NCBI GenBank assembly: GCA_023251875.1
Contig: JAHEXY010000001.1
Coordinates: 248,001 to 312,000 of the forward strand
DNA: 64,000 bases
Direction of reading: 5' to 3'
Source of the DNA: Bacteroidota bacterium
Lineage (GTDB): Bacteria > Bacteroidota > Bacteroidia > JAHEXY01
The stretch's first letter is position 1. Each line of letters opens with the position of its first letter. The position numbers were made by a program, and so were the translations under genes. Shown here piece by piece: positions 17,893 through 60,634 of the stretch. The notes below the pieces were generated by a model. That model was not told the DNA's origin. It saw only the letters and a list, made by a program, of their open reading frames with translations, and ran no database searches.

Positions 17893-17913
17893 AACAAAAT
17901 TTTAAAATTATTA

Positions 17914-18076
17914 AACCACATAGATACATAGAAAATTAGAAGCTTCGCTTTGCATAGGTGTTTTCTATTTAATATTTGATACAAATAGGATTGCTTTTTC
18001 CACTATCACATAGCTAAACGCTCTGTTAAAAATCATAATTTCTATGTATTCTTAATTTCTATGTTTCTATGCGGTT
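17914..18076 (-). repeat. Period-8 convergent-arm repeat element between ftsK and lolA
   Basis: Left arm AACCACATAGATACATAGAA begins at 17914; the right arm (18037-18076) is its complement, ending TTTCTATGTTTCTATGCGG. The arms pair over about 23 bp with three mismatches and are built of 8-nt units (CACATAGA, TACATAGA and variants). About 95 nt separate them. Same design as the element inside batC at 55934-56006 and the half-element at 47263-47288, sharing an ACCRCAKAG core. Confidence 0.75.
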
Positions 18077-18087
18077 AAATATTTAGT

Positions 18088-20589
18088 TTACAAGAACTGT
18101 TCCAAACTTCTTTCATCAGTAATTAGTACTTTTCTAGCTTTGCTTCCTTCATTAGGCCCTACAATACCTGCAGCTTCTAATTGATCCATTAATCTACCGG
18201 CACGGTTGTATCCTAATTTTAATTTTCTTTGAATTAAAGAAGTAGAGCCCTGTTGGTGGCTGATAATTAATAAAGCGGCCTCTTTAAACATGGGGTCTCT
18301 TTCATTCGGGTCAACATCGCTCGATTCTAGTTTAGCTGTTTCATCCGTAAATTCAGGTAATAAAAATGCACTTGGATAACCCATTTGTGAACCAATAAAA
18401 TCTGTAACCTTGTCTACTTCAGGTGTATCTAAAAATGCACATTGAATTCTAATTACATCACTTCCGTTAGATAATAACATATCTCCTTTTCCAATTAATT
18501 GATCAGCTCCTCCGGTATCTAAAATGGTACGTGAATCTATTTTTGATGCAACTCTAAAAGCAATTCTTGAAGGGAAGTTGGCTTTAATGGTTCCTGTAAT
18601 AATATTTACCGATGGCCTTTGTGTGGCAATAATTAAATGTATGCCAATGGCTCTTGCTAACTGCGCTAAACGGGCAATGGGAGTTTCAATCTCTTTACCG
18701 GCAGTCATTATGAGATCAGCAAATTCATCAATAACCAATACGATATATGGCAAATAGCGATGGCCATCATTGGGATTTAATCTACGCGCAACAAATTTTG
18801 TATTGTATTCTTTAATGTTTCGAACAAGAGCGTGTTTTAGTAATTCATATCTCAAATCCATTTCTGTACATAATGAATTGAGTGTATGGATTACGCTTTT
18901 GGTATCTGTAATAATGGGTTCTTCAGTACCCGGTAATTTGGCTAAAAAATGTCTTTCTATTTTATTGAATAAAGTTAATTCAACTTTTTTAGGATCGACC
19001 AAAACAAATTTTAATTCTGCAGGATGTTTTTTATACAGTAGAGATGCAAGTATAGCATTTAATCCAACCGATTTGCCTTGTCCGGTTGCCCCAGCCATAA
19101 GTAAGTGAGGCATTTTTGCAAGATCAACAACATAGGTTTCATTGGCAATGGTACGGCCTAATGCAATAGGTAATTCCATTTTCGATTTCTGAAATTTTTC
19201 CGACATGAGAACCGATTTCATCGAAACGGTTTCACCTTGTTGGTTAGGGACCTCAATACCTATAGTTCCCTTACCGGGAATAGGTGCAATGATACGAATG
19301 CCTAATGCAGAAAGACTTAATGCAATATCATCTTCTAAACTTTTTATTTTGGAAATGCGTACTCCGGCAGCCGGAACAATTTCGTACAAAGTTACGGTTG
19401 GGCCAATGGTTGCTTTTATTTTAGAAATCTCGATGCTGTAATTGCCAAGCGTTTCAACAATTTTATTTTTGTTTGCTTCTAATTCTTCACGGTTTACATT
19501 GATTTCATTATGGCCATACTCGTTTAATAAATCGAGTGTAGGATATTTATATTTTGACAAATCGAGTGTAGGATCATATTCACCTAAAGCTTCAATACTG
19601 TATGCTCGATCCTCATCTGATGAATCATTATTTACTATTACTTCTTCTTTTTGTTTTTCAATGGTTAAGCCTGCAATTTCAATTTCTTTGTCGTTTTCTA
19701 CAGAGAGTTCTAATTTTTTTTCTTTTTGTGGTTCTTCTTTTTTTGAATTGGAAATGGTAAAAGTATTTTCTTCTTTCTCTAAGGGCACTTCGTTTTTGTC
19801 TTCCTCTTTTAATTTATTTCCAGCAATCGTAATTGTTTCATTTTCTTTTTTGTCTTCAATGATTGGAATTATCGATTTTACTTCATCTTTTTCTTCTTTC
19901 TTTTTTGGAAGCCAATTAAAAGAAAGATTAATGGCAATTACTAGAAAAACCAATGCGCTCACAAGCAATAAAATTCCTGTTCCTGTATAGCCAATCATGC
20001 CTTGATCATCTGGATTAATGGGGTCTCCACACAAAAAGCGCGTAACCTGATAACCCACCGCCCCCCCAAGTATCAATAAAGAATTATTTATAAAGAGATA
20101 ACCTAAAGCAACAGAAAGCCAAACCAAGCCGAAAAAAGCAAAGGGTAAAAATTTACTAAGAGAAATAAACTGCGTTTTAAAAAGGGCTTTCACTCCTATT
20201 AAAAAAGAAGTGATTACGATAAAAAAAGAAGCAATACCAAAACCTTGATAAATGAAAAAATGAGCAACCAGTGCCCCAATTTTACCCAATTTGTTACTTA
20301 CAACGACATCTGAATTAAATAAAAATTTATTCCAAGGCAATGAAAGTTTATCTTGATCAACTTCCCAATTAAATAAATATGAAATAAAAGCTGTTGCTAA
20401 AAAAACAGAAAGAGAAATAAAGAATAGTCCTGTTACTTTTTGTAGTTTTTCGTTTTCTAAAATGCCATTGATGCGTTCGCCAATTCGTTTAAAAAAGCCA
20501 CTATTTTTCTTCTTCTGCGGTTTTTCAGGTGCAGTAGCAGTTTCGGTATTATTTGTTTCTGATTTTAATTGGTTTGCTTTTTTTGCCAT
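18088..20589 (-). CDS. ftsK: FtsK/SpoIIIE-family DNA translocase
   Basis: 833 residues. Four to five N-terminal transmembrane helices (about residues 50-235) anchor it at the division septum. An acidic, Lys/Glu-rich linker follows (235-345), then the alpha/beta motor with Walker A GATGQGKSVGLN near residue 501 and Walker B VLVIDEFADL near 620. A C-terminal gamma winged helix (about 770-833, LIQRKLKLGYNRAGRLMDQL) recognises orienting DNA sequences. Role: pumping the chromosome terminus through the closing septum and activating XerCD. A G7 tract lies in the membrane region (20051-20057, C on the plus strand). Length is normal for Bacteroidota FtsK. Confidence 0.96.
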   Translation of the reverse strand: MAKKANQLKSETNNTETATAPEKPQKKKNSGFFKRIGERINGILENEKLQKVTGLFFISLSVFLATAFISYLFNWEVDQDKLSLPWNKFLFNSDVVVSNKLGKIGALVAHFFIYQGFGIASFFIVITSFLIGVKALFKTQFISLSKFLPFAFFGLVWLSVALGYLFINNSLLILGGAVGYQVTRFLCGDPINPDDQGMIGYTGTGILLLVSALVFLVIAINLSFNWLPKKKEEKDEVKSIIPIIEDKKENETITIAGNKLKEEDKNEVPLEKEENTFTISNSKKEEPQKEKKLELSVENDKEIEIAGLTIEKQKEEVIVNNDSSDEDRAYSIEALGEYDPTLDLSKYKYPTLDLLNEYGHNEINVNREELEANKNKIVETLGNYSIEISKIKATIGPTVTLYEIVPAAGVRISKIKSLEDDIALSLSALGIRIIAPIPGKGTIGIEVPNQQGETVSMKSVLMSEKFQKSKMELPIALGRTIANETYVVDLAKMPHLLMAGATGQGKSVGLNAILASLLYKKHPAELKFVLVDPKKVELTLFNKIERHFLAKLPGTEEPIITDTKSVIHTLNSLCTEMDLRYELLKHALVRNIKEYNTKFVARRLNPNDGHRYLPYIVLVIDEFADLIMTAGKEIETPIARLAQLARAIGIHLIIATQRPSVNIITGTIKANFPSRIAFRVASKIDSRTILDTGGADQLIGKGDMLLSNGSDVIRIQCAFLDTPEVDKVTDFIGSQMGYPSAFLLPEFTDETAKLESSDVDPNERDPMFKEAALLIISHQQGSTSLIQRKLKLGYNRAGRLMDQLEAAGIVGPNEGSKARKVLITDERSLEQFL

Positions 20590-36526: not shown

Positions 36527-37694
36527 ATATAGTTGCTGCTAAGATAAGGATTGAGATGAATATGGGATTAAAAAAGAATAAATGATATACATTATAAAAT
36601 GACTTATTCATGTAGGGAAGGATTTGCATAACAGATTCTAGGTTTAATAAATAACCAATAGAAACAAGAGTATATACTTCCAATCTTTTTGAAAAAATAG
36701 CATAAAGGCCTCCAAATAAAACAGCAGGATGAATATATCTTTCGTGCATTTGTGTGTTAAAGTAAAAGAATAGGATAGCGTTTAGCGTAAAAACTAAAAA
36801 AATATAGGAAAGTTTTTGATCTTCGTCTTTTATAGTAAAAGATTTACGTAATAAAATAAGTAGTACTACAAGAAAACTTCCAAAAAGCATCAATCCCCAA
36901 TGTTTGTACGTTAATCCTAAAAAAGATAGGGAATCGGGCAGGTTATTGGGGGAGTGAAATAATAGATACCAAAAATTGTAAGCGGAAACCGAAAGCTTAG
37001 GATAAAAATCGAGGGAACGTGTTGCAATAGCGGAGATAGAGGGTGTGAACGTGCCCTTTATAAGAAAGGGTAGCATAATTATAAATAGTGTTGCAATAAA
37101 TACAATAACAGTTTCAATTGTTTTTTTAGGATGTAGCCTTAATTGCGGTAAAACAATAAGCAATAATAAGGGGAAAAAGATAATGGCTTGAAGTTTTGTT
37201 GCTAGGGCGAGTGCCATTGCAATAGAACATAAATGGATTTTGTTTGTTAAAGCAAAATACAAACTCAAAAAAATGAAAAAAGTATGTATGGTATCACATT
37301 GAATCCAAATAAGGGTATTGTACCAAAAAGCAGGATTTAAAATCAAAAGCCAGATAAAGTGAATGCTGGTTTTATTTTTGTGCAATACATGAACTACAAA
37401 ACCAAGCGTTAAAAAATCGAATAGAATATAAAATGCTTTTATGTAATTAATGCTTACTAAATTAATTTCTGATGAGGAATGAAATAAAAATGTAAATGCT
37501 TTTAAAATATACAAAAGTAGGGGATGGTTATTTACTTCAGGATTAGTATAGATGTTAGAAAAGCCACTATCCATCATGCTTTTAGACCAGCTTATTAAAA
37601 AATACTTGTCGTAGCCGGCATCAGGAATATGAAATACAAATAAAATATATGCGAAAGCAAAAAGAATGTAATAGTGTATGGGTTTAAAGTTCAA
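36489..37694 (-). CDS. GT-C-type membrane glycosyltransferase
   Basis: 401 residues, about ten transmembrane helices. An N-terminal luminal Asp region (IPDAGYDKYFLISWSKSM) and NNHPLLLYILK are typical of polyprenyl-phosphate-sugar-dependent GT-C enzymes, and a late MHERYIHPAVLFGGLYAIF resembles the mannosyltransferase/DUF2029 group. The frame begins with TTG at 37692-37694, inside a period-7 repeat (37682-37709); there is an in-frame stop two codons upstream and no ATG before residue 40, so a non-ATG start is required. It overlaps the flippase gene downstream. Confidence 0.72.
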   Translation of the reverse strand: MNFKPIHYYILFAFAYILFVFHIPDAGYDKYFLISWSKSMMDSGFSNIYTNPEVNNHPLLLYILKAFTFLFHSSSEINLVSINYIKAFYILFDFLTLGFVVHVLHKNKTSIHFIWLLILNPAFWYNTLIWIQCDTIHTFFIFLSLYFALTNKIHLCSIAMALALATKLQAIIFFPLLLLIVLPQLRLHPKKTIETVIVFIATLFIIMLPFLIKGTFTPSISAIATRSLDFYPKLSVSAYNFWYLLFHSPNNLPDSLSFLGLTYKHWGLMLFGSFLVVLLILLRKSFTIKDEDQKLSYIFLVFTLNAILFFYFNTQMHERYIHPAVLFGGLYAIFSKRLEVYTLVSIGYLLNLESVMQILPYMNKSFYNVYHLFFFNPIFISILILAATIFAFIRVYKLYNQ

Positions 37695-37709
37695 GGTTCA
37701 ATGTTTAAA
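37682..37709. repeat. Period-7 repeat arm (GTTCAAG-type)
   Basis: Four 7-nt units in a row: GTTTAAA, GTTCAAG, GTTCAAT, GTTTAAA. The same family appears before moxR (50671), in the gene before batA (52686) and between batA and batB (54784-54864). Here it covers the start codon of the glycosyltransferase gene. Confidence 0.65.
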
Positions 37710-47262: not shown

Positions 47263-47288
47263 CCTCTGTGGCTCTGTGCCTCTGTGGT
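47263..47288 (+). repeat. Half-element of the period-8 ACCRCAKAG repeat family
   Basis: CCTCTGTGGCTCTGTGCCTC followed by TGTGGT; the reverse strand reads in 8-nt units CACAGAGG, CACAGAGC, CACAGAGG. No matching left arm was found nearby, so this is one arm only. It is 12 nt before the GTG start of the glycosyltransferase gene. Confidence 0.65.
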
Positions 47289-48549: not shown

Positions 48550-50559
48550 TTACCTCGTAACAATCCTGCCTAAATGTGCAGAAATTTGTTTTTTTAATCC
48601 TAATAATTTTAGTTGCTCTTGCATTATATGTAATGTTTCTTCATCATTCTTTGTTTCTTTAAGCAAATTGCGGTAATCTTCTAGCATTTTTTCAACTTTC
48701 CTGAGTCTTAATGAATCTACGGATGAAGTAACAGCCCGTTTTAATTGCATTTCTTCAGTTATGACAATAATTCCATGTTGATCATTCCAATACGGACTCA
48801 AAAAATATTCTGATTTGACTAGGTCAATAGCTGTATTTTTAACAGATTCATTTTGGTTTTGAATGAAAAACTGTTCGCTTGCAATAATACCATTTTCCAG
48901 TTGTAATTGAAATTCTAAAAATATTTGTTGGTAAACTACATTTTCAAATTTAGGGTAATCTTGTAATAAGACAAGTTCTTTAAAGATATATTCAGCAACA
49001 CTCATTTTATGTTCTGAACCTGGTAATCTTAATTCAGGCGCTATATTTTCATCATCATAAAAAATTACTTCCTTATTTCCATAATTCATTAGAATTCGAA
49101 TAATATCTCTCTCGTTATGTTCAAACGAGCTTGATTTAATTCTTTCATTTATATTTTTTTCTTGCTGTGTTTGAAAAGCAAGAGGGTCGGTAATACTTTC
49201 TTCAATATTTTTTGCTTCATCGCCTTTAAACTGACTAACAAATTTTTTCTTCCTTATTTTATTGAGTTCAACAATTAATGTTTGTTCTTGTATATCCAAT
49301 AAACGAGAAGCTTCTTTTACATAAAGTGATTGCGTAATATGATCGGGTATTAAACCAATAGTATTAACAATATCTTTAATGAGATTTACTTTTTTAATGG
49401 GATCATTTTCCGTTTCTTTTAAAAGCAAGGAAGTTTTAAATACAATAAAATCTTTTGCTTGTTTACTGATATAATTTTTTAATTCTTGTGTAGGGACTTT
49501 TCTTGCATAAGAATCAGGGTCATCTCCATCAGGAAAAAGAACAACTTTTACGTTTAATCCTTCTTCAAGTATCATATCAATACCCCTAAAAGAAGCTTTA
49601 ATACCGGCAGCATCACCATCATACAGAATGGTAATGTTATTGGTAAATCTTCTTATCAATCGAATTTGTTCAACAGTAAGTGAAGTGCCGGAGGATGCTA
49701 CAACATTGGTAACACCAGATTGATGAAGCGAAATAACATCGGTATAACCTTCAACCAAATAGCAATTATCTTGTTCTACAATTGTTTTTTTAGCAAAGAA
49801 AATTCCATACAGTACTTTGCTTTTATCATAAATTTCAGAAGCAGGAGAATTGAGGTATTTGGCTTGCTTCTCGCTGGTAACTAAAATTCGTCCGCCAAAG
49901 CCAATTACGCGCCCCGATAAATTATGAATGGGAAACATCACCCTTCCGCGAAAGCGATCAAAATGCTTTTCCGGAGTATTTTCTTCTTTTTTAACTATGG
50001 AAAGTCCTGTTTTCTCTAAATATTCAAGTTTGTAGCCTTTTGCAAGGGCATCATCAGTAAACGCACTCCATTGATCTAAACTATAGCCCAACTGAAATTT
50101 TTGAATGGTATCCTCTTTAAAACCTCGCTCTTTAAAATACGTAAGGCCAATGGCTTTGCCATGCTCATTGTTATGCAATATTTCCGAAAAATATTTTTGT
50201 GCATATGCAGAAGCGAGATAGAGGGCTTCTCGTTCGTTTAATTCTTCTTTGTCTTGAGGTGTAAATTCTGTTTCGGCAATTTCAATATTGTACTTTTTGG
50301 CAAGAAACTTAAGCGCTTCCGGAAAAGTGGAATGCTCATGTTCCATTATAAAATTTACCGAATTACCACCCTTTCCACAGCCAAAACACTTATATATTCC
50401 CTTAACAGGAGATACTGAAAATGAAGGTGTTTTTTCATTATGAAAGGGACATAGACCAATCATATTAGTGCCACGCCTTTTAAGCGTAACAAAATCTCCT
50501 ACTACTTCTTCAATTTTAGCAGTATCAAATATTAAGTCTATCGTTTCTTTAGTAATCAT
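48550..50559 (-). CDS. dnaG: DNA primase
   Basis: The start is placed at the ATG at 50557-50559 (MITKETIDLIFDTAKIEEVV), because the longer frame begins inside a promoter box; this gives 669 residues. The CHC2 zinc finger (LCPFHNEKTPSFSV, YKCFGCGKGG) lies at about residues 36-64, the TOPRIM catalytic domain near 255-340 with YLVEGYTDVISLHQSG and LYDGDAAG, and a C-terminal helicase-binding region follows. It synthesises RNA primers for chromosome replication together with DnaB. Divergent from moxR. Confidence 0.95.
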   Translation of the reverse strand: MITKETIDLIFDTAKIEEVVGDFVTLKRRGTNMIGLCPFHNEKTPSFSVSPVKGIYKCFGCGKGGNSVNFIMEHEHSTFPEALKFLAKKYNIEIAETEFTPQDKEELNEREALYLASAYAQKYFSEILHNNEHGKAIGLTYFKERGFKEDTIQKFQLGYSLDQWSAFTDDALAKGYKLEYLEKTGLSIVKKEENTPEKHFDRFRGRVMFPIHNLSGRVIGFGGRILVTSEKQAKYLNSPASEIYDKSKVLYGIFFAKKTIVEQDNCYLVEGYTDVISLHQSGVTNVVASSGTSLTVEQIRLIRRFTNNITILYDGDAAGIKASFRGIDMILEEGLNVKVVLFPDGDDPDSYARKVPTQELKNYISKQAKDFIVFKTSLLLKETENDPIKKVNLIKDIVNTIGLIPDHITQSLYVKEASRLLDIQEQTLIVELNKIRKKKFVSQFKGDEAKNIEESITDPLAFQTQQEKNINERIKSSSFEHNERDIIRILMNYGNKEVIFYDDENIAPELRLPGSEHKMSVAEYIFKELVLLQDYPKFENVVYQQIFLEFQLQLENGIIASEQFFIQNQNESVKNTAIDLVKSEYFLSPYWNDQHGIIVITEEMQLKRAVTSSVDSLRLRKVEKMLEDYRNLLKETKNDEETLHIMQEQLKLLGLKKQISAHLGRIVTR

Positions 50560-50565
50560 ATAATA

Positions 50566-50573
50566 CAAATGTA
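50566..50573 (-). promoter_or_regulatory. dnaG: Bacteroidota -7 box TACATTTG for dnaG
   Basis: TACATTTG on the minus strand, ending 6 nt before the preferred dnaG ATG at 50559. This decides the start and predicts a near-leaderless transcript. Confidence 0.5.
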
Positions 50574-50620
50574 TAAATTAGCTACTTAACATTTCTTAAC
50601 ACTTTTTGATTTTTTTTGGG

Positions 50621-50651
50621 TTGACGTATAAGCGTGATCCGTATACATTTG
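50621..50651 (+). promoter_or_regulatory. Promoter candidate for the moxR-bat operon
   Basis: TACATTTG at 50644-50651 matches TAnnTTTG. Alternatively TTGACG at 50621-50626 lies 17 nt before TACATT, which is close to a classical -35/-10 pair. Either way transcription would start about 55 nt before the moxR ATG, and the leader would contain the period-7 repeat at 50671. Confidence 0.5.
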
Positions 50652-50670
50652 CATTATGTATGGAATAAAA

Positions 50671-50706
50671 AACTTTAAACCTTCAAACATTAAACTTTGA
50701 ACTAAT
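50671..50706 (+). repeat. Period-7 repeat arm in the moxR leader
   Basis: Units AACTTTA, AACCTTC, AAACATTA, AACTTTG, AACTAAT run right up to 6 nt before the moxR ATG. This is the reverse-complement orientation of the GTTYAAA family at 37682 and 54784. No second arm. Confidence 0.6.
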
Positions 50707-50712
50707 TTATAT

Positions 50713-51711
50713 ATGGAAAGTACAAATACAGACATTCGTGAATTAAACGAGCGAATTCAACGTGAAAGTGCCTTTGTTGATATGCTTAATATGGAAATCA
50801 ATAAGGTAATTGTTGGACAAAAATACATGATAGAGCGATTACTTATTGGGCTTTTATCGAATGGGCATATTTTGCTAGAAGGTGTGCCGGGCTTAGCAAA
50901 AACACTTGCCATAAATACTTTGTCAAAAACCATTAATGCAAAATTTAGCCGTATTCAGTTTACGCCCGATTTGCTTCCTGCTGATTTATTAGGAACCATG
51001 ATTTATAGTCAGAAAAAAGAAGAATTTGTGGTGAAAAAAGGACCGCTTTTTTCAAATTTTGTGTTGGCAGATGAGATTAATCGTTCTCCGGCTAAAGTAC
51101 AAAGTGCATTGCTCGAAGCTATGCAAGAAAGACAAATTACAATCGGAGAACAAACGTATAAATTAGAAGAACCCTTTTTAGTTTTAGCTACTCAAAACCC
51201 AATTGATCAAGAAGGAACTTATCCTTTACCGGAAGCTCAGGTAGATCGTTTTATGCTAAAGGTTGTAATTGGATACCCAAGTAAAGAAGATGAAAAATTA
51301 ATTATTCGTCAGAATTTGGCTAAGGCTTTTCCAAAGGCTGTTGAAATATTATCTACTGATGCCATTATTAAAGCTAGAGATGTGGTTAAAGAAGTTTATA
51401 TGGATGAAAAAATTGAGCAATATATAGTAGATATTGTTTTTGCTACACGTTTCCCTAAGGAATACAAATTAAGCAAGTTTTCTTCTTTGATCAGTTATGG
51501 AGGTTCACCTCGTGCAAGTATTAGTCTTGCTCAAGCTGCTAAAGCCTATGCATTTATTAAGAGAAGAGGCTATGTAATTCCGGAAGATGTGCGTGCAGTT
51601 TGTGCAGATGTATTGCGTCACCGTATTGGATTAACCTACGAAGCAGAAGCAGAAAATATCACAACAGAGAATATTATTACTGAGATATTGAATGTGGTAG
51701 AAGTACCCTAG
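50713..51711 (+). CDS. moxR: MoxR-family AAA+ ATPase
   Basis: 332 residues. Walker A LLEGVPGLAKT near residue 55, Walker B FVLADEINRSPAKVQSALLE near 115, sensor 1 LATQNPIDQEGTYPLPEAQ near 160, then a helical lid. MoxR ATPases are thought to act as chaperones that help assemble or activate the von Willebrand factor A (VWA) proteins encoded beside them. First gene of the operon moxR-DUF58-X-batA-batB-batC-batD-batE. The gap to the next gene holds a period-8 inverted repeat. Confidence 0.93.
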   Translation: MESTNTDIRELNERIQRESAFVDMLNMEINKVIVGQKYMIERLLIGLLSNGHILLEGVPGLAKTLAINTLSKTINAKFSRIQFTPDLLPADLLGTMIYSQKKEEFVVKKGPLFSNFVLADEINRSPAKVQSALLEAMQERQITIGEQTYKLEEPFLVLATQNPIDQEGTYPLPEAQVDRFMLKVVIGYPSKEDEKLIIRQNLAKAFPKAVEILSTDAIIKARDVVKEVYMDEKIEQYIVDIVFATRFPKEYKLSKFSSLISYGGSPRASISLAQAAKAYAFIKRRGYVIPEDVRAVCADVLRHRIGLTYEAEAENITTENIITEILNVVEVP

Positions 51712-51712
51712 T

Positions 51713-51802
51713 TAATTTGAAAATTAGCTAATTTGAAAATGTGGCAATGTTGAGAATTTCGATATTCATTTTCAAATTTATTCATTTTCAAATTTTCAAA
51801 TT
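51713..51802 (+). repeat. Period-8 convergent-arm element between moxR and DUF58 genes
   Basis: Left arm (51714-51741): AATTTGAAAATTAGCTAATT then TGAAAATG, i.e. TTTGAAAA, TTAGCTAA, TTTGAAAA. Right arm (51767-51802) on the reverse strand reads TTTGAAAA, TTTGAAAA, TGAATAAA, TTTGAAAA. The arms can pair over about 28 nt around a 25-nt loop. The element fills the whole 97-bp gap. Confidence 0.75.
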
Positions 51803-51808
51803 GATAAA

Positions 51809-52678
51809 ATGGAAACATCAGCATTATTAAAAAAAGTACGTAAGATTGAAATTAAAACACGAGGACTCTCAAGCCAGGTTTTTTCCGGAGAGTACCATAG
51901 TGCTTTTAAGGGAAAGGGTATGACTTTTTCTGAAGTTAGGGAATATCAGTATGGAGACGATATTAGAAGTATTGATTGGAATGTTACTGCTCGTTTTAAT
52001 GCTCCTTATGTGAAAATATTTGAAGAAGAACGAGAGCTTACCGTAATGCTTTTAGTTGATGTAAGTGGTTCAAAAGAATTTGGAACTCAAAAACAATTGA
52101 AGCAAGATTTGGTTACTGAAATTGCTGCAGTGTTGGCTTTTTCTGCCATTCAAAATAATGATAAAGTGGGAGTAATTTTATTCAGCAATAAGATTGAAAA
52201 GTTTATTTCTCCTAAAAAAGGTTCAGCACATATTTTAAGAATTATTAGAGAGCTTATTAATTTTGAACCAACAAGTCGAGAAACAGATATTGCAGAAGCC
52301 TTGCGTTATTTTACCAATGTTATAAAAAAGAAAAGTACTGCATTTTTAATTTCAGATTTAATTGGAAAAAAATTTGATGATGCCATTAAAATCACCAATA
52401 AAAAACACGATTTAGTTGCCGTACGTGTGTATGATGTAAGAGAAACTGAAATTCCTCCAATGGGTTTGGTAAAAGTTAAAGATGCAGAAACCGGAAAAAT
52501 GATTTGGGTAAATACCTCAAGCCAAAAAGTAAGAGACCATTATAAAATATGGTGGAAACAACAAGAAGAACGCGTAAATGATTTGTTGAAGAAAAGTGGA
52601 GTTGATGCAGTTTCTATTCGTACAGATCAGGATTATGTTAGGCCACTGATGAATTTATTTAAAAAGCGTGAGAAGTGA
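51809..52678 (+). CDS. DUF58 domain protein of the bat operon
   Basis: 289 residues without a signal peptide. Family start RKIEIKTRGLSSQVFSGEYH and the diagnostic EYQYGDDIRSIDWNVTARF near residue 48, then a VWA-like fold with DVSGSKEFG near 90 in place of a MIDAS motif. DUF58 proteins accompany MoxR ATPases and Bat VWA proteins and are presumed to be soluble partners. The last four bases, GTGA, overlap the next reading frame. Confidence 0.92.
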   Translation: METSALLKKVRKIEIKTRGLSSQVFSGEYHSAFKGKGMTFSEVREYQYGDDIRSIDWNVTARFNAPYVKIFEEERELTVMLLVDVSGSKEFGTQKQLKQDLVTEIAAVLAFSAIQNNDKVGVILFSNKIEKFISPKKGSAHILRIIRELINFEPTSRETDIAEALRYFTNVIKKKSTAFLISDLIGKKFDDAIKITNKKHDLVAVRVYDVRETEIPPMGLVKVKDAETGKMIWVNTSSQKVRDHYKIWWKQQEERVNDLLKKSGVDAVSIRTDQDYVRPLMNLFKKREK

Positions 52679-53703
52679 AAATGAGTTCAACGTTCAATAA
52701 TTCAAAGTTTAAAGTTCAAGGAACAAAGTTCAAATATATTGGACTTAGTTCTTGTATATCAAAAATCTTTCAATCTTTCAATTTTTCAATTTTTCAATTT
52801 ACGTTATTATTCATTATTCATTGTTCATTATTCACTGTAAATGCACAAGATATTTCTGTTGTTGCAAAATTCGATTCTTCAAACGTAATTAAAATTGGGG
52901 ACCAGCTTCAATTGCATCTTAAAGCACAGTTGCCGAAGAATACAAACATTATCTGGCCAAGCATTGTGGATACAATTTCCAAACAAATTGAAATCGTAAA
53001 AAAATCTGTAATAGATACAAGTTTTGCTTCCGATAGTCAGCATGTGGTTCTTTCTCAAACATTATATCTCACTTCATTTGATTCGGGATATTGGGCTATT
53101 CCTCCCTTCAAGTTTACTACTGTAGTTGGAAAAGATTCCAGTGCATTTGAAACAGAGCCTTTGCTTTTACAAGTAAATACCATTGCTGTAGATACCACAC
53201 AAGCCATTAAAGAAATTAAAGAACCATTAGATATACCAATTGGCTGGGAAGAAATTGCGTCTTATGTGATTGGAGGAATAGTTTTATTGGCACTACTTAT
53301 TTTAGCCTTTTATTTTATCAGAAAATACAGAAACAAACCCAAAGAAATTATTGTTGAGAAAAAACCGGATATTCCACCTCATATTATTGCGCTTGAAAAA
53401 TTAGAGAAACTAAAGGAGCAACAACTTTGGCAAAATAACCAAACAAAAGAATACCACGCTGTACTTTCTGAAATTGTGAGAACCTATCTTGAAAATCGTT
53501 ATCAATTTAACGCATTGGAATTTACTACCGATGAAATTATGCAAGCTATTAGAAATATTGAAGTCCCAACTGAAATGGTTTCAAAATTGCGACAATTATT
53601 AGTGCTGTCCGACATGGCGAAATTTGCCAAAGAGCAACCTTTGCCAAATGAAAACGAATTGAGTATGAATAATGCAGTAGAATTTATAAATCAAACTAAA
53701 TAA
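52675..53703 (+). CDS. BatD-related membrane protein with a repeat-derived signal region
   Basis: 342 residues, starting at GTG 52675 (overlapping the DUF58 stop as GTGA) or ATG 52681. Residues 1-58 are peculiar: they are encoded by three different period-7/8 repeat tracts (52686-52735, 52764-52800, 52806-52835), and the last two give the hydrophobic core FQFTLLFIIHCSLFTVNAQ, which works as a signal peptide. The mature part has a beta-rich periplasmic domain (about 60-190), one transmembrane helix (VIGGIVLLALLILAFYFI, about 208-226) and a helical cytoplasmic tail of 115 residues. This layout matches the short BatD-like/DUF4381-like proteins between DUF58 and batA genes in Bacteroidota. Confidence 0.8.
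   Translation: MKMSSTFNNSKFKVQGTKFKYIGLSSCISKIFQSFNFSIFQFTLLFIIHCSLFTVNAQDISVVAKFDSSNVIKIGDQLQLHLKAQLPKNTNIIWPSIVDTISKQIEIVKKSVIDTSFASDSQHVVLSQTLYLTSFDSGYWAIPPFKFTTVVGKDSSAFETEPLLLQVNTIAVDTTQAIKEIKEPLDIPIGWEEIASYVIGGIVLLALLILAFYFIRKYRNKPKEIIVEKKPDIPPHIIALEKLEKLKEQQLWQNNQTKEYHAVLSEIVRTYLENRYQFNALEFTTDEIMQAIRNIEVPTEMVSKLRQLLVLSDMAKFAKEQPLPNENELSMNNAVEFINQTK
52686..52835 (+). repeat. Composite of three period-7/8 repeat tracts inside coding sequence
   Basis: Tract i (52686-52735): GTTCAAT, AATTCAAA, GTTTAAA, GTTCAAG, GAACAAA, GTTCAAA. Tract ii (52764-52800): AATCTTTC twice, AATTTTTC twice. Tract iii (52806-52835): ATTATTC, ATTATTC, ATTGTTC, ATTATTC. Tract i matches the element at 54784 and tract ii the right arm at 58710-58734. 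Their complements are not found on the other side, so they are single arms placed in series. Confidence 0.75.
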
Positions 53704-53714
53704 AATAAATAATT

Positions 53715-53757
53715 CCAAACTCTCCCTCTCTTTTGGAGAGGGGTAGGGAGAGGTCAT
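53715..53757 (+). repeat. REP-like palindromic repeat, copy 6
   Basis: CCAAACTCTCCCTCTC, then TTTTGGAGAG and the tail GGGTAGGGAGAGGTC. It fills the gap between the BatD-related gene and batA. Confidence 0.75.
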
Positions 53758-53782
53758 AAACTAAAAAACATTGAACTAAAAA

Positions 53783-54778
53783 TTGATCCCTGATTTTGCA
53801 AATAAAGAATATTTTTTTCTCTTACTGGTTATCCCGGTAATGCTATACTGGTATTGGAGAAAGCGTAATAATTCTCATGCAGAGCTTCAAATTTCTTCAA
53901 TTGAAGGATTTGAAACTACTTCATCAGCTTCCATTTTGCCCAAATTACGTCATACCTTATTTGTGTTAAGAATAGTAGGAATTAGCTCTTTGATTATTGC
54001 TATGGCTCGTCCACAATCAAGTACGAGTTGGCAAGAAGTAAAAACAGAAGGTATTGATATTGTATTAGCGCTGGATATTTCTGGAAGTATGATGGCAAAA
54101 GATTTTAAACCAGATCGTTTAAGCGCAGCCAAAGAAAATGCAATGAATTTTATTGAAGAGCGTCCAAATGATCGAATTGGCTTGGTTATTTTTAGTGGAG
54201 AAAGCTTTACGCAATGTCCATTAACAACAGACCATTCTGTATTAAAAAATTTGTTTGCTGATATTAAAAGTGGCATGATTAAAGATGGTACTGCCATTGG
54301 TATGGGTTTGGGAACTGCCGTAAATCGCTTGCGTGGATCTGAAGCAAAAAGTAAAGTAATTATTCTTTTAACCGATGGTGTAAATAATTCAGGCGATTTA
54401 TCTCCCATGACAGCAGCTAAACTTGCGCAAGGAGAAAACATTCGAGTTTATACAATTGGTGTGGGAACAATTGGTCAGGCACCATTTCCATATCAAGATA
54501 TGTTTGGCAATATACAATATCAAATGGTAGATGTGAAAATTGATGAGGATTTAATGAAATCGATTGCTGATATGACCGGTGGAAAATATTTTAGGGCAAC
54601 TGACGAAAATAAATTAAAAGATATTTATAAAGAAATTGACCAACTCGAAAAATCAAAAATTAACTCAACAGAATTTCGCAAGCATACTGAATTGTTTTTC
54701 TGGTATGCATTTTTTGGAATATTATTAATAGTATTAGAAATGGCATTGAGGTATACTTTGTTTAGAAGTGTTCCTTAA
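53783..54778 (+). CDS. batA: BatA, von Willebrand factor A membrane protein
   Basis: 331 residues. The frame has no ATG before residue 20; the TTG at 53783 (read as Met, then IPDFANKEYFFLLL) is needed to keep the first transmembrane helix. Helices at about 10-25 and 55-73, then a VWA domain with MIDAS motif DISGSMMAKD near residue 98 and LLTDGVNNSGD near 195, and a C-terminal helix at about 305-325. It projects into the periplasm and, with BatB, forms part of the Bat complex linked to oxygen tolerance and envelope stress. Confidence 0.9.
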   Translation: MIPDFANKEYFFLLLVIPVMLYWYWRKRNNSHAELQISSIEGFETTSSASILPKLRHTLFVLRIVGISSLIIAMARPQSSTSWQEVKTEGIDIVLALDISGSMMAKDFKPDRLSAAKENAMNFIEERPNDRIGLVIFSGESFTQCPLTTDHSVLKNLFADIKSGMIKDGTAIGMGLGTAVNRLRGSEAKSKVIILLTDGVNNSGDLSPMTAAKLAQGENIRVYTIGVGTIGQAPFPYQDMFGNIQYQMVDVKIDEDLMKSIADMTGGKYFRATDENKLKDIYKEIDQLEKSKINSTEFRKHTELFFWYAFFGILLIVLEMALRYTLFRSVP

Positions 54779-54783
54779 AAACC

Positions 54784-54864
54784 GGTTCAAAGTTCAATGT
54801 TAGAAAGTTTAAAGTTTTTGATAAATGACTTTACTCCTCAACCTTGAACTTTCAAACTTTAAAC
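54784..54864 (+). repeat. Period-7 convergent-arm element between batA and batB
   Basis: Left arm (54784-54820): GTTCAAA, GTTCAAT, GTTAGAAA, GTTTAAA, GTTTTTG. Right arm (54842-54864) reads on the reverse strand GTTTAAA, GTTTGAAA, GTTCAAG. Loop about 20 nt. The element nearly fills the gap. Confidence 0.75.
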
Positions 54865-54871
54865 TAAAGTA

Positions 54872-55915
54872 ATGGAACTATTCCGTTTTCAACATATAGA
54901 ATATTTATACGGCTTACTGGCAATACCGGTATTTGTTATCATTTATGCATTAATGCTTGCTTGGAAAAGGAAAGCATTAAATGAGTTCGGTTCTATTAAA
55001 GTGATCAAACAATTAATGCCTGAAGTGTCATCTGCAAAACCTTTGTTGAAATTTATTATCATGTTATTTGCTTTTGCATTTCTTGTTGTTGGATTAGCCA
55101 ATCCACAAATAGGATCTAAAATGGAAGAAGTAAAACGTGAGGGGATAGATATTGTGGTTGCATTAGATTTATCTAATAGTATGTTGGCTGAAGATTTAAC
55201 GCCTAGCCGTTTAGAAAAAGCCAAAAATGCCATTTCGCAATTAATTGACAAATTGCATGGAGATAGAATTGGAGTAGTGGTGTTTGCAGGAGACGCCTAT
55301 GTTCAACTTCCTATTACAACTGATTATGCCGCAGCAAAATTATTTTTATCGACTATTAATACAGAGATGATTCCAACTCAAGGAACAGCTATTGGTTCTG
55401 CAATTGAATTGGCCATAAAATCTTTTGGAGATAAAAATGAAAATAGCAAATCTATTATTGTAATAACGGATGGAGAAAATCATGAAGACGATGCATTGGC
55501 ACAAGCGCAAGAAGCAGTAAAAAAGGGAATAGTTGTGCATACAATTGGAATGGGATCTCCTCAAGGAGCACCAATACCAACTTATTTGCATGGACAGCTT
55601 GCAGGATATAGAAAAGATAAAGATGGAACAACAGTTGTTACCAAATTAGATGAAGCTATGCTGCAACAATTAGCAGCTGCCGGAAATGGTATTTATATTC
55701 GTGCTAATAATACACAAGTAGGTTTAGATATTTTATTTGAACAATTAAATAAAATGCAAAAAAAAGAATATGGTAGTAAAATGTTTACTGATTACGAAGA
55801 TCGTTTTCAAATTTTCTTTGGAATAGCACTACTTTTACTTGTTCTTGAATTTTTTATTTCGGAAAGAAGAAGCAAATGGTGGGCAAAAATTAATTTATTT
55901 GGTGATTCAAAATGA
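54872..55915 (+). CDS. batB: BatB, von Willebrand factor A membrane protein
   Basis: 347 residues, paralogue of BatA. Transmembrane helices near residues 10-28 and 57-76, VWA domain with MIDAS DLSNSMLAEDL near residue 98 and VITDGENHEDD near 195, and a C-terminal helix at about 315-335. The periplasmic VWA domain is expected to interact with BatA. It ends in ATGA shared with batC, so the two are translationally coupled. Confidence 0.93.
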   Translation: MELFRFQHIEYLYGLLAIPVFVIIYALMLAWKRKALNEFGSIKVIKQLMPEVSSAKPLLKFIIMLFAFAFLVVGLANPQIGSKMEEVKREGIDIVVALDLSNSMLAEDLTPSRLEKAKNAISQLIDKLHGDRIGVVVFAGDAYVQLPITTDYAAAKLFLSTINTEMIPTQGTAIGSAIELAIKSFGDKNENSKSIIVITDGENHEDDALAQAQEAVKKGIVVHTIGMGSPQGAPIPTYLHGQLAGYRKDKDGTTVVTKLDEAMLQQLAAAGNGIYIRANNTQVGLDILFEQLNKMQKKEYGSKMFTDYEDRFQIFFGIALLLLVLEFFISERRSKWWAKINLFGDSK

Positions 55916-56739
55916 AAATTATAAAAAACATATACCGCAGAGACGCAGAGACGCAGAGATTTTATTATTATCTGGCTATGCCTTTGCGTCTTTGCGCCTT
56001 TGCGGTTGAAAAAAGATATTTATTAGCGCTATTACTTATTTTATTTTCTTTTATGAGCTTTGCTCAGCAAGACAAAAAACTTTTGCGTGATGGAAATAAA
56101 TTGTATGAGGCGAAGAAATTTACGGAAGCAGATTCTTTATACCGACAAGCATTAGGAACCAAACAATCAACCGAGGGTGCATTTAATTTAGGAGATGCAT
56201 TGTTTCAACAAGGAAAATATGATGATGCAGCTCAACAATTTCAGAGTATTACTTCTCAAGATGTAGATAAAGAAACCAAAGCAAAAGCATATCATAATCT
56301 TGGAAATTCATTATTGCAATCTAAAAAATACCAAGAAAGTGTTGATGCTTATAAAAATGCTTTACGAGCCAATCCAAGTGACGATGACACAAAATATAAT
56401 TTAGCTTATGCTCAGAAAAAACTAATTCAACAACAGCAGCAGCAACAACAACAGCAACAAAACCAGGATAAAAATAAAGATCAAGATAAAAAAGATCAAC
56501 AAAACAAAGACGATAAAAACAAAGATCAAAAAGATCAGGATAAGAATGATGACCAGCAGGCCGATAAAGATAAAAAAGATGATAAAAAGCAAGGCCAGCA
56601 ACCAAAGCCTGACGATATTTCAAAACAAGATGCCGATCGTATGCTTGATGCATTAAATAAAGATGAACAAGATCTTCAAAAAGATTTGCAAAAAAAGAAA
56701 GCTAAAGTTGCAGTGGTAAAAATTGATAAGGATTGGTAA
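55912..56739 (+). CDS. batC: BatC, TPR protein with polyglutamine tract and a repeat-encoded N-terminus
   Basis: 275 residues from ATG 55912, which overlaps batB as ATGA. Codons 8-32 are made by a period-8 inverted repeat (55934-56006) and read RRDAETQR ... PLRLCAFAV; the true signal peptide (YLLALLLILFSFMSFAQ) follows. Residues about 55-165 form TPRs (LYEAKKFTEADSLYRQAL, AYHNLGNSLLQSKKYQESVD). A run of 12 Gln (about 173-184) leads into a Lys/Asp-rich tail (DKNKDQDKKDQQNKDDKNKD). BatC is a periplasmic partner of BatA/BatB. The insertion has kept the frame. Confidence 0.9.
   Translation: MKIIKNIYRRDAETQRFYYYLAMPLRLCAFAVEKRYLLALLLILFSFMSFAQQDKKLLRDGNKLYEAKKFTEADSLYRQALGTKQSTEGAFNLGDALFQQGKYDDAAQQFQSITSQDVDKETKAKAYHNLGNSLLQSKKYQESVDAYKNALRANPSDDDTKYNLAYAQKKLIQQQQQQQQQQQNQDKNKDQDKKDQQNKDDKNKDQKDQDKNDDQQADKDKKDDKKQGQQPKPDDISKQDADRMLDALNKDEQDLQKDLQKKKAKVAVVKIDKDW
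55934..56006 (+). repeat. Period-8 convergent-arm element inside batC
   Basis: Left arm ACCGCAGAGACGCAGAGACG plus CAGAG (55934-55958), units GCAGAGAC. Right arm (55981-56006) ends CTTTGCGCCTTTGCGGT. They pair over 25 positions with one mismatch if G-U pairs are allowed in the plus-strand RNA. Loop 22 nt. Confidence 0.85.
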
Positions 56740-56742
56740 AAA

Positions 56743-56832
56743 ATAATTAGCTAATTAGTAGATGTGATAATTAGCTAATGAAAAAATTATTAACGCATCA
56801 GCTAATTAGCTAATTAGCTAATCAGCTAATTT
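56743..56832 (+). repeat. Period-8 element between batC and batD
   Basis: TAATTAGCTAATTAG (56744-56758) and TAATTAGCTAAT (56768-56779) form the left part; the right part (56801-56832) is four 8-nt units GCTAATTA, GCTAATTA, GCTAATCA, GCTAATTT. The unit is itself palindromic, so many pairings are possible. Confidence 0.75.
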
Positions 56833-56839
56833 CGTAACT

Positions 56840-58645
56840 ATGAAAAACACAATATTAACAATTATATTATTACTTGGCTACGCAGTAACAATGTCAGCCA
56901 ACTTCACCGCTTCGGTTAATAAAACTACTGTTGCTGTAGGAGAAACTTTTCAATTAACTTTTTCTGTTAATACTAGCGCATCTGGTTTTAAAGCTCCAAG
57001 TTTTACTGATTTTCAAATCTTGTCCGGCCCTAATCAATCAACAAGTATGAGTATAGTAAATGGAAGTATGTCGCAATCTATTTCGTACTCTTATTATTTG
57101 CAACCATTTAAAGAGGGAGAATTTACCATACCTGCGGCCAGCATTAATGCTGATGGAAAAATAATTTCTTCTAACCCCATTAAAATAAAGGTTGTAAAAG
57201 GTGCTGCGGCTCCAAGTCAAAACCAACAACAGCAGCAACAGAATGGAAATACACAACAGCAATCTGCTTCAGGAGGCAATGCCGGAAACGATATTTTTCT
57301 TAGAGCAGTAGTTGATAAATCAAGTATGTATCAAGGAGAACAATTTGTAGTTACTTTCAAATTGTATACCCGTAAACAAATTTCAGGTTTAGACGCAGAA
57401 AAACTTCCGGCATTTGATGGATTTTGGTCAAAAGATATTGATATCCCTAATCAAATTTCTTTATCTACAGAAAATGTAGATGGTGTAAATTACAATGTTG
57501 GTGTAATTAAAAAATGTGTATTGTTTCCGCAACATTCCGGTTCCTTAGAAATAGGACCTATGGAAATTAATGTTAATGCTTTGGAAGCAGCCAAACCTCG
57601 CAATTGGATGGAGCAAATGATGGGGGGGGGACAAAAGGAAGTAAAATACACGCTTAAAAGTAAGCCAGTAAAAATTAATGTAAATGCATTGCCCGAACCT
57701 AAACCTGCAGATTTTAGTGGCATTGTTGGTAATATTTCAATGAAAGATAATATTGATAAAACTTCAGTAAAAACCAATGATGCTATTAATTTATCCATTA
57801 CTATTTCCGGTAGCGGAAATTTAAGTTTAATTGATTCTCCTAAACTTTCTTTTCCAACAGATTTTGAAGCTTACGATCCTAAAATAAAAGATAATATTAC
57901 TACCAATAGCAGTGGTGTTTCAGGAAGCAGAACTTATGATTATTTATTAATTCCCCGTCATCCCGGTGATTTTGAAATTCCTGTTGTTACACTTTCTTAT
58001 TTTGATGCTAGTAAAAAAAATTATGTAACGCTGCAAACAAAAAAGTACAGTATTCATGTTGATAAAGGAGAAGGTTATGACGAAAGTGCTGTTACTTCCG
58101 GAATTCAAAATAAAGAAGACATCAAATATATTGGTAGCGATATTCATTTTATAAAAACCAATTCTTTTACATTAAAAAAGCAAGCGGAACATTTTTATCG
58201 TTCGTTTTTATTTTATCTATTGCTTGTAATACAGCTTTTGGGTTTTACCGCTTTTGTAGTGTACCGACAAATACAAATAAAAGACAATAGCAATATTGGA
58301 TTAAAGAAAAGTCGTGAAGCTGCTAAAATGGCTAAAAAACGATTGAGCAAAGCTCAGGTATATTTAAAAGAAAATAAAAAAGATCAGTTTTATGAAGAAA
58401 TATTTACTGCCCTCTGGGGATTTTTAGGAGATAAATTAGGCATACCTGTTTCTGAATTAAATAAAGAAGTAGTTGGAGAACGATTGCAAAAAAAACAAGT
58501 AAAAGACGAAACCATAAAACAATTAATGGATACGATTAATACTTGTGAATTTGCTCGATTTGCTCCCGGAGGAAATTCTCAACAAGAAAATATTTACAAC
58601 GATGCTATGGGAGTGATAATGAAAGTTGCAGAAGAGATTAAATAA
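56840..58645 (+). CDS. batD: BatD, oxygen-tolerance membrane protein
   Basis: 601 residues. Signal peptide MKNTILTIILLLGYAVTMSA; then FTASVNKTTVAVGETFQLTF, the BatD hallmark start, and repeated beta-sandwich domains with KSSMYQGEQFVVTFKLYTRK near residue 162 and RHPGDFEIPVVTLSYFD near 373. One C-terminal transmembrane helix (FLFYLLLVIQLLGFTAFVVY, about 455-475) precedes a cytoplasmic helical tail. A Gln-rich spacer lies near 127-140. A run of nine G occurs within codons for MMGGGQ at 57622-57630, notable in this AT-rich genome. Confidence 0.93.
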   Translation: MKNTILTIILLLGYAVTMSANFTASVNKTTVAVGETFQLTFSVNTSASGFKAPSFTDFQILSGPNQSTSMSIVNGSMSQSISYSYYLQPFKEGEFTIPAASINADGKIISSNPIKIKVVKGAAAPSQNQQQQQQNGNTQQQSASGGNAGNDIFLRAVVDKSSMYQGEQFVVTFKLYTRKQISGLDAEKLPAFDGFWSKDIDIPNQISLSTENVDGVNYNVGVIKKCVLFPQHSGSLEIGPMEINVNALEAAKPRNWMEQMMGGGQKEVKYTLKSKPVKINVNALPEPKPADFSGIVGNISMKDNIDKTSVKTNDAINLSITISGSGNLSLIDSPKLSFPTDFEAYDPKIKDNITTNSSGVSGSRTYDYLLIPRHPGDFEIPVVTLSYFDASKKNYVTLQTKKYSIHVDKGEGYDESAVTSGIQNKEDIKYIGSDIHFIKTNSFTLKKQAEHFYRSFLFYLLLVIQLLGFTAFVVYRQIQIKDNSNIGLKKSREAAKMAKKRLSKAQVYLKENKKDQFYEEIFTALWGFLGDKLGIPVSELNKEVVGERLQKKQVKDETIKQLMDTINTCEFARFAPGGNSQQENIYNDAMGVIMKVAEEIK

Positions 58646-58650
58646 TTAAA

Positions 58651-58734
58651 AATTGAAAGATTGTAAAATTGAAAGATTGTAAAGATTAATTTTAGAATAT
58701 AATTTTTTTAATCTTTTAACCTTTCAATCTTTCC
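58651..58734 (+). repeat. Period-8 convergent-arm element between batD and batE
   Basis: Left arm is a perfect tandem of the 16-mer AATTGAAAGATTGTAA (58651-58682), itself two 8-nt units. The right arm (58710-58734) reads on the reverse strand GGAAAGAT, TGAAAGGT, TAAAAGAT. Inner sequences AAAGATTAA and TTAATCTTT pair well. It covers most of the 102-bp gap. Confidence 0.8.
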
Positions 58735-58747
58735 AACCTAATTTAAG

Positions 58748-59512
58748 ATGAGCTACAAAAAAATAATCTATACATTAGCGGTGCTTCTGTCGGTAATAGT
58801 TACCGCTTTCAGCCAAGAGCTTGATCCACGTATAAAAAATGCAAACGATGCCTATACAAAAGGCGATTATCAACCGGCCATTGATCAATATACACAAGTT
58901 GTTAATGAAGGTAATGTTGCGCCAGAATTGTATTTTAATCTCGCTAATGCATATTATAAAAACAACCAAATTTCTCTTTCTATTTTAAATTACGAAAGGG
59001 CCTTAAAATTAAAGCCGGATGATGAGGATATAAAGTTTAATCTTCAAATGGCTAATTTAAAAATTGTGGATAAAATGGATGCCATACCGCAAATGTTTTA
59101 CCAAGACTGGTGGGAAAATTTTAAAAATATTTTCTCAATGGATGGTTGGGCTTGGTTGGCAATTATTTCGGTTTTTCTTACGCTTACTCTTTTTATTTTA
59201 TTTCTTATTGCCAATGTTTCTGCCTACAAAAGAATTGCTTTTTCTTTAAGCATAATGTTCTTGATTGTTTCTATAAGCAGTTTTGTATTTGCTCAAAAGC
59301 AATATAAATCTGTTCATGAGGCAGGCCAAGCCATTGTAACTTCTCCAACTATTGTTGTTAAAGGCTCTCCGGCTGAAACCGGTACCGAGCTTTTTGTTAT
59401 TCATGAAGGTTTAAAAGTGATCATCACAGAAAATGTTGGTGATTGGTATCAGATTAAACTTCCGAATGGTAACCAAGGTTGGTTGAAGGTAAGTTCAGTA
59501 GAAATAATCTAA
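58748..59512 (+). CDS. batE: BatE, TPR and SH3-domain membrane protein
   Basis: 254 residues. Signal peptide ending TAFSQE; TPRs at about 25-105 (ANDAYTKGDYQPAIDQYTQV, LYFNLANAYYKNNQISLSIL, YERALKLKPDDEDIKFNLQ). Two transmembrane helices follow (about 135-155 and 160-178), then a bacterial SH3 domain at the C-terminus (SPAETGTELFVIHEGLKVII, GNQGWLKVSSVEII). This is the standard last gene of Bacteroidota bat operons. Confidence 0.9.
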   Translation: MSYKKIIYTLAVLLSVIVTAFSQELDPRIKNANDAYTKGDYQPAIDQYTQVVNEGNVAPELYFNLANAYYKNNQISLSILNYERALKLKPDDEDIKFNLQMANLKIVDKMDAIPQMFYQDWWENFKNIFSMDGWAWLAIISVFLTLTLFILFLIANVSAYKRIAFSLSIMFLIVSISSFVFAQKQYKSVHEAGQAIVTSPTIVVKGSPAETGTELFVIHEGLKVIITENVGDWYQIKLPNGNQGWLKVSSVEII

Positions 59513-59587
59513 TAAAATGCGTAATTTTGATTCATGGCATTATTCTTGCAAAGATAATCCCTAGAAAAAAAGACCCTGAATATCGAA

Positions 59588-60634
59588 ATGCATTTACGTT
59601 TATTTAAATTTCACATTGCTGTTTTATTATTTTCCATTGCTCTATTTTTTAGTAGTTGTAATCATTCAAATAAACACCAAATAGTACCAGCCTTCTACCA
59701 TTGGCAAAGCCAATTGAATTTATCTCCTGAAGAAACATCCTACTTACAAAAACTTCATGTTCAAAAACTATATCTTAAATTTTTTGATGTTGATTGGGAT
59801 GTTGATACAAAACAAGCAATGCCGCTTGCTATACTTGATGTAAAAACAAAGCCTGATTCTGTTGAAATTATCCCAACCGTATTTATTACCAATCGTACTT
59901 TATTAAATATTGGAGATAATGAGATTGATTCTCTCTCAAACCACATTACTAAAAAAGTGAATACTATTGCCGGCAAAGCCAATATTAGTTTTTATGAATT
60001 ACAATTTGATTGCGACTGGACGGAGAAAACCCGCGAAAAATATTTTCGTTTGATTAAACTGGTTCATAAAAATTATACACAAAATAATTTTACTATTTCA
60101 GCTACTATTCGATTGCATCAAATAAAATATTATAAACAAACAGGAGTACCTCCGGTTGATAAAGGCATGCTCATGTTTTACAATACAGGAGATGTAGATG
60201 ATGTTAATACCTCAAATTCAATTTTAGATTTAGAAACAGCCAAAAAGTACTTAGTAAATTTTGATGAATACACCTTGCCTTTAGATGTTGTGCTCCCCGT
60301 ATTTTCATGGGGCGTTTTATACCGAAGAGGAAAATTAATACAATTGTTAAACAATACCTCAGCCAATGACTTTGCCGATACCTCTCGTTTTATATTGCTC
60401 GAAAACAATAAATACAGAGTTGTAAAGAGCACCTATTATAATGGCACGTATCTATACAGCAATGATGTTATCCGGATTGAATCTGTTTCAAACAACACAT
60501 TAGAACAAGCAGCAGATTTACTCAGCAAGCAAATTAAAAACAAAAATATTACTGTGGCATTTTATCATTTACATCCTAGTATTTTTAAAAAATATACTTA
60601 TGAAGAATTGGAAAAAGCGCTTACTCATTTTTAG
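59588..60634 (+). CDS. Lipoprotein of unknown function, DUF3142-like
   Basis: 348 residues. Lipobox FSSC near residues 21-24 of a hydrophobic N-terminus. The mature part (AFYHWQSQLNLSPEETSYLQ, KLYLKFFDVDWDVD, YELQFDCDWTEKTREKYFRL and LPLDVVLPVFSWGVLYRRGKL) looks like a TIM-barrel glycosidase-type protein of the DUF3142 group; Asp and Glu residues near 130-140 could be catalytic, which I cannot establish. Its 3' end overlaps the next gene by 35 bp in another frame, so the pair is coupled. Confidence 0.72.
   Translation: MHLRLFKFHIAVLLFSIALFFSSCNHSNKHQIVPAFYHWQSQLNLSPEETSYLQKLHVQKLYLKFFDVDWDVDTKQAMPLAILDVKTKPDSVEIIPTVFITNRTLLNIGDNEIDSLSNHITKKVNTIAGKANISFYELQFDCDWTEKTREKYFRLIKLVHKNYTQNNFTISATIRLHQIKYYKQTGVPPVDKGMLMFYNTGDVDDVNTSNSILDLETAKKYLVNFDEYTLPLDVVLPVFSWGVLYRRGKLIQLLNNTSANDFADTSRFILLENNKYRVVKSTYYNGTYLYSNDVIRIESVSNNTLEQAADLLSKQIKNKNITVAFYHLHPSIFKKYTYEELEKALTHF

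Follow-up and report, generated by a model that had tools for sequence, protein, structure and literature searches.

The moxR-bat operon in the window, the 64,000-nt stretch of Bacteroidota DNA analysed here, appeared in an earlier sequence-only reading to carry a periodic element with facing arms at almost every gene junction, which raises the question of whether these repeats set the expression of the Bat subunits or belong to something wider. The operon encodes a MoxR AAA ATPase, a DUF58 protein, a product without Pfam match, two BatA/VWA proteins, a TPR protein, BatD and a TPR-SH3 protein. Gene calls come from a simple longest-ORF script, so the limits of a few gaps may be inexact. The features concerned are as follows.

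50713..59512, plus strand, moxR-bat operon (Pfam matches and open reading frames)
50671..50706, no strand, weak, degenerate and single heptamer arm in the moxR leader, read in the sequence
51709..51802, no strand, two-armed octamer element AATTTGAA / TTCAAATT in the moxR-DUF58 gap (z -4.3), with dispersed homologues in the genome
52684..52838, plus strand, composite of three arrays forming the N-terminus of the overlapping gene 52675-53703
53720..53752, no strand, REP-like CTCTCC...GGAGAGG palindrome at the eighth junction (fold -20.1 kcal/mol, z -2.4)
54785..54860, no strand, two-armed heptamer element (GTTCAAA / TTTGAAC), filling the space from one VWA gene to the other
55934..56006, no strand, two-armed octamer element CGCAGAGA / CTTTGCGT, in frame within the TPR gene 55912-56739
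56743..56831, no strand, two-armed octamer element AATTAGCT between the TPR gene and batD
58648..58733, no strand, two-armed octamer element TTGAAAGA / TCTTTCAA between batD and the TPR-SH3 gene

Period-7/8 arrays clearly exceed chance at six of the eight junctions, five of which also hold a complementary arm at a distance of about 11-40 nt from the first. Tandem Repeats Finder and a second repeat finder located arrays of period 7, 8 or 16 at six operon sites (51709-51802, 52684-52838, 54785-54816, 55936-56004, 56744-56831 and 58648-58733), and folding against shuffled sequence, the check that had been proposed, gave z from -2.1 to -7.5 at the six junction elements, with values of -4.3 (51709), -2.1 (54779), -7.5 (55916), -4.6 (56740) and -4.1 (58646) for the two-armed ones. 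The stems, as judged by eye, are A+U-rich except at 55934 and all lie inside the operon. The description fails in the moxR leader, where a single arm of units ACTTTAA-ACCTTCA-AACATTA-AACTTTG ends 6 nt before the ATG and the segment 50660-50712 folds no better than shuffles (z -0.72). No Rfam family matched 50500-59600 above its gathering score.

The first two-armed element takes in the moxR stop codon and finishes 6 nt before the next ATG, with arms (51714-51741 and 51767-51794) complementary at 86% over 28 nt. A 16-nt period is also present in both of its arms (51763-51794 and 51709-51740), the moxR stop codon being part of the repeat unit. Complementarity reaches 88% over 16 nt between 54786-54801 and 54840-54855, 76-86% within 56743-56831, and 79% over 34 nt between 58655-58688 and 58700-58733. 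The element at 55934-56006, the sole occurrence of GCAGAGACGCAGAGA in the genome, has a near-perfect arm pair and the outer ACC end of its family. The palindrome of the eighth junction, correctly recognized from the outset as REP-like, belongs to a separate, G+C-rich, high-copy family with no 7/8 periodicity and 53 pattern matches in the genome sample, some of them overlapping.

Most elements lie in gaps, as first described, but those at 52684 and 55934 are N-terminal coding sequence, because the genes starting at 52675 and 55912 overlap their upstream neighbours. The former comprises a heptamer array AGTTCAA (52684-52734), an octamer array AATCTTTC (52764-52800) and a heptamer array ATTATTC (52806-52838), whose arms are poorly complementary and fold weakly (z -2.2). 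A complementary second arm is present at five junctions and not at this one or in the moxR leader. The last two arrays encode FNFSIFQFTLLFIIHCSLF, a hydrophobic signal-peptide-like stretch, and the element at 55934 sits about 7 codons into its TPR gene, ahead of the signal peptide. Heptamer arrays occur at the 52684 junction in L074 and L091 as well, and the gene after DUF58 begins with heptamer-encoded NSKFKVQG in the window, NSKFKVQ in L074 and EFKVQGSK in L091. Repeat DNA has thus become N-terminal coding sequence, with an FKVQ-containing start in three genomes.

Chance is excluded as the source of the periodicity. Convergent period-7/8 arms were found nine times in 707 kb outside the window and never in dinucleotide shuffles, where equal numbers would have spoken against the pattern. 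The genome was sampled as stretches totalling 1.55 Mb, on which the gap counts rest; exact 7-mer repeats in these gaps peak at lags of 7, 8, 14 and 16, and the 743 gaps hold 33 period-7 and 23 period-8 arrays (56 in all). Markov simulations yield about 3 and 5 (about 8), and other periods show no surplus of this kind. Since the genome so far exceeds shuffles and simulations at these two periods, the pattern is real and period-specific.

The elements are not special to the moxR-bat operon. The share of co-directional gaps with arrays is about 9% here, 13% in 80 GTDB bat-operon loci and 3% in 40 stretches of other genomes of the class; none of 22 gaps in a small E. coli control has any. The distinctive feature is clustering: element-bearing junctions adjoin one another more often than expected (11 pairs versus 3.5, p = 0.0005), also when the window is left out (8 versus 2.9, p = 0.007), and L060 and L160 contain further runs, again with differing units within one run.

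The arrays fall into families dispersed through the genome. Copies of one family at unrelated loci of this genome align over arms and loop at about 72-94% identity across roughly 35-100 nt; for instance, two other genome loci are 86-89% identical to 56743-56793 across 51-53 nt, and a further two share 72-77% identity with 51709-51802 across 86-92 nt. The heptamer pattern (AACNAAY)3, with units AACTAAT, AACGAAT, AACCAAC and others, has 162 matches in this genome versus 7 for the reversed pattern and is present in 34 of 149 genomes; among the heptamer arms listed, those paired within about 130 nt are always in minus-plus order. The octamer CTTTGCGT occurs in 71 of the 149 genomes, with up to 160 matches in one and a near-absent control, and TTTGAAC triplets occur in 24. 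Family members share ends too: an AACC or ACC end is present in 18 of 34 pattern matches of the RCANAG octamer family in this genome, 55934 included, and octamer copies in G114 and G132 share an 8-then-9 spacing together with ends such as TGGCAC or TTTCTC. Such shared ends and spacing defects at separate loci would not be created by slippage alone.

Several related repeats lie elsewhere. In the 195-nt gap between the minus-strand genes 17245-17892 and 18088-20589, a two-armed AACCACATAGA family octamer element (17905-18075) shares its AACC end with the element at 55934, and the octamer array CTCTGTGG at 47264-47287, in the gap before 47301, is an RCANAG family copy whose reverse complement reads like ACC(CACAGAGG)n. 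A single heptamer array GTTTAAAGTTCAAGGTTCAATG (37682-37708) occupies a co-directional junction of minus-strand genes. Another dispersed, MITE-like palindromic element, TTCTAAAAATTA ... TAATTTTTAGAA, 73-78 nt in total, is represented in 1.55 Mb by six exact pairs (L057:18934, L058:9521, L061:19832, L153:15623, L180:18502 and L182:16172), some of which enclose the CTCTCC palindrome; the reversed control gave none. In L244 and L247 (G114 and G132), an octamer arm and its flank recur in a local head-to-tail series with a period of about 50-90 nt, a one-arm tandem growth on a larger scale.

Position is strongly biased. In total, 45 two-armed elements were collected over all samples, 27 from this genome and 18 from others, of which 41 lie in co-directional, 0 in divergent and 4 in convergent gaps, as opposed to 202:85:55 in the same order for other palindromes. 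The suggestion of a class of structured intergenic elements enriched in co-directional gaps therefore holds both genome-wide and class-wide. In co-directional gaps the median distance of the outer ends is 3 nt to the stop and 12 nt to the start. Arrays of this genome occur in 47 of 507 co-directional and 0 of 94 convergent gaps (p = 5e-4); full absence from convergent gaps as a general rule was dropped, as other genomes have 2 of 40 and 3 of 60. Even in long gaps the arrays of this genome, but not of others, lie near start codons (7 versus 2.3 expected, p = 0.004).

The arms also follow a polarity rule. Among two-armed elements, G outnumbers C in the left arm of 38 and is outnumbered in 6, compared with 159:164 for other palindromes. 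Of the 29 start-side arms in this genome with unequal G and C, 28 are C-type, and most end 0-10 nt before the start. Since the two strands of a palindrome have the same sequence, the polarity is a property of the element and not of gene orientation. The left G-type, right C-type order spans many unit families. GTT occurs 53 times among 80 heptamer units, an AGT/GTT core being shared among families that are not independent.

Related genomes show gain, loss or unit change at the same junction. Between moxR and DUF58, the stop codon of L108 is followed immediately by a heptamer array of 73 nt. In L112, L114 and L127, whose proteins are about 80% identical, the gap bounded by the same codons is 9 nt long, and the window has an octamer element instead of the heptamer array of L108. 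Arrays of differing units occupy one junction in L074 versus L080 and in L082 versus L083; L101, L102 and L109 keep one unit family, strongly diverged, and the near relatives L119 and L122 differ in copy number.

A function in the mRNA is one conceivable use for a hairpin reaching from stop to start, which could govern processing or stability, or hide the next start until the upstream ribosome melts the structure. Nearly all two-armed elements are co-directional and fit closely between stop and start, divergent promoter gaps are avoided, the folds are strong, junctions with elements come in runs, and initiation in Bacteroidota is tuned by structure around the start codon (PMC6847099). Selected pairing in mRNA would leave more G-U than A-C mismatches in sense-strand stems, yet the counts are 45:48 (29:25 in this genome, 16:23 elsewhere), which argues against it. 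In the TTAGTTA family, the one tested for co-adaptation, own arms pair no better than arms of other copies. A translational-coupling hairpin was rejected as well, the predicted accessibility of positions -20 to -1 being 0.48 versus 0.52 at control junctions (p = 0.23), and a ribosome placed at the stop codon brought no significant gain in predicted start-region accessibility. These three modest tests for mRNA-pairing selection are negative, and stability or processing may still be affected at individual junctions. With element presence not conserved among relatives either, control at the RNA level is a rather unlikely explanation. The analysis gives no support to the proposed role in Bat expression: elements of this kind are not confined to the operon, their presence and unit vary in relatives, and G-U bias, arm co-adaptation and start occlusion all gave negative results.

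The arrays might instead be paired sites for DNA- or RNA-binding proteins, an idea that draws on the same architecture of paired tandem octamers or heptamers on opposite strands with variable spacing in Geobacter metallireducens (PMC2700814), where IHF/HU was proposed, and on TAACTGA arrays just upstream of starts (PMC4679880), which the C-type start-side arms recall. One design built from many unrelated units in a single operon, no two-armed element in a divergent (promoter) gap, and units that change at orthologous junctions make binding sites of this kind improbable. About equally improbable would be a purely local origin, in which slippage and template switching repeatedly make arrays and inverted copies without dispersal. 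In many prokaryotes, long simple repeats most often have units of 7 nt (Mrazek 2007, cited in PMC4679880), and both the copy-number differences between L119 and L122 and the stop codon included in the 51709 array suit such a process; the recurrence of a few unit families, complete with common ends and spacing defects, at dozens of unrelated loci and across many genera does not.

The reading that best accommodates the observed families, dispersal, ends, position, polarity and turnover is that the elements are probably a REP-like class of dispersed 7/8-nt-unit palindromes, copied and kept at operon junctions, with little function for Bat expression. Several families, each with tandem 7/8-nt arrays as arms, G-type on the left and C-type on the right, are dispersed through the genome as elements that carry arms of their own and, in at least one family, a fixed end; the copying is presumably at DNA level and by an enzyme. 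Unit copy number changes fast, probably through growth of the arrays by slippage. Elements are kept mainly between the stop and the next start of co-directional genes, and where genes overlap, an element comes to lie in tolerant N-terminal (signal-peptide) coding sequence.

Some facts sit uneasily with the REP-like reading. The families differ in unit, so that a single copying machinery is at most a possibility, and no target-site duplication was seen. The genome has seven matches to Y1 transposases, and the two inspected had no period-7/8 arrays within 900 nt; G009 combines 26 octamer matches with 0 Y1 matches. Mere tolerance is countered by the empty convergent gaps of this genome, though some are occupied in others. 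The closeness of its arrays to start codons in long gaps, not seen in the other genomes, is a further difficulty. A bolder version, in which Bacteroidota-wide mobile palindromes with interchangeable 7/8-nt units and one architecture and polarity are made or copied by an activity that targets junctions of translated genes, supplying operons with new spacers and even signal peptides, is decidedly speculative. In either case such arrays recur in Bacteroidota genomes, have hardly been described and are readily taken for operon-specific regulation. Any account of how they arose has to meet the quantitative facts of polarity, co-directional bias and turnover at a given junction.

Like REP, BIME and REPIN sequences, the elements are high-copy, dispersed, hairpin-forming, intergenic and patchy between genomes. 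REPs also avoid divergent gaps. Unlike them, the arms are 7/8-nt tandem arrays and several unit families coexist per genome; no associated RAYT (Y1) gene was found at the two loci inspected. The elements were not filed as REPs because the GTAG/CGTC foot is missing: within the first 8 nt of the left arm, GTAG is present in 1 and CGTC in 0 of 45 two-armed elements. A search of the accessible literature found no paper on a two-armed class in Bacteroidota, nor any by unit sequence, which is weak evidence of absence. The closest precedents are the paired sites of G. metallireducens (PMC2700814) and the TAACTGA repeats (PMC4679880). The former, termed global regulator binding sites, comprise classes 1-3 with 16 to 48 copies per class, each site having three to five tandem octamers or heptamers interpreted as IHF/HU sites (Aklujkar 2009, PMC2700814). 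The 45 two-armed elements share with classes 1-3 the tandem 7/8-nt units paired on opposite strands, and differ in phylum, in units (GTTGCTYN, TCTCCGTSY and MTYCTGA in Geobacter, known from the published consensus only), in avoiding divergent gaps, in occupying operon junctions and in quick turnover. The class 4 CCYTC sites resemble the CTCTCC...GGAGAGG palindrome of the eighth junction, as judged from the published consensus only. TAACTGA direct repeats are known from Beggiatoaceae, Cyanobacteria and some Bacteroidetes and are almost all direct, with one inverted set reported (MacGregor 2015, PMC4679880). They have one unit, in contrast to the many units described here in arrays of which about half are two-armed, and the present arrays do not belong to them; both are nevertheless heptamer arrays placed a few nucleotides upstream of starts in a fixed orientation, and TAACTGA itself resembles AACTAAT and AACGAAT.
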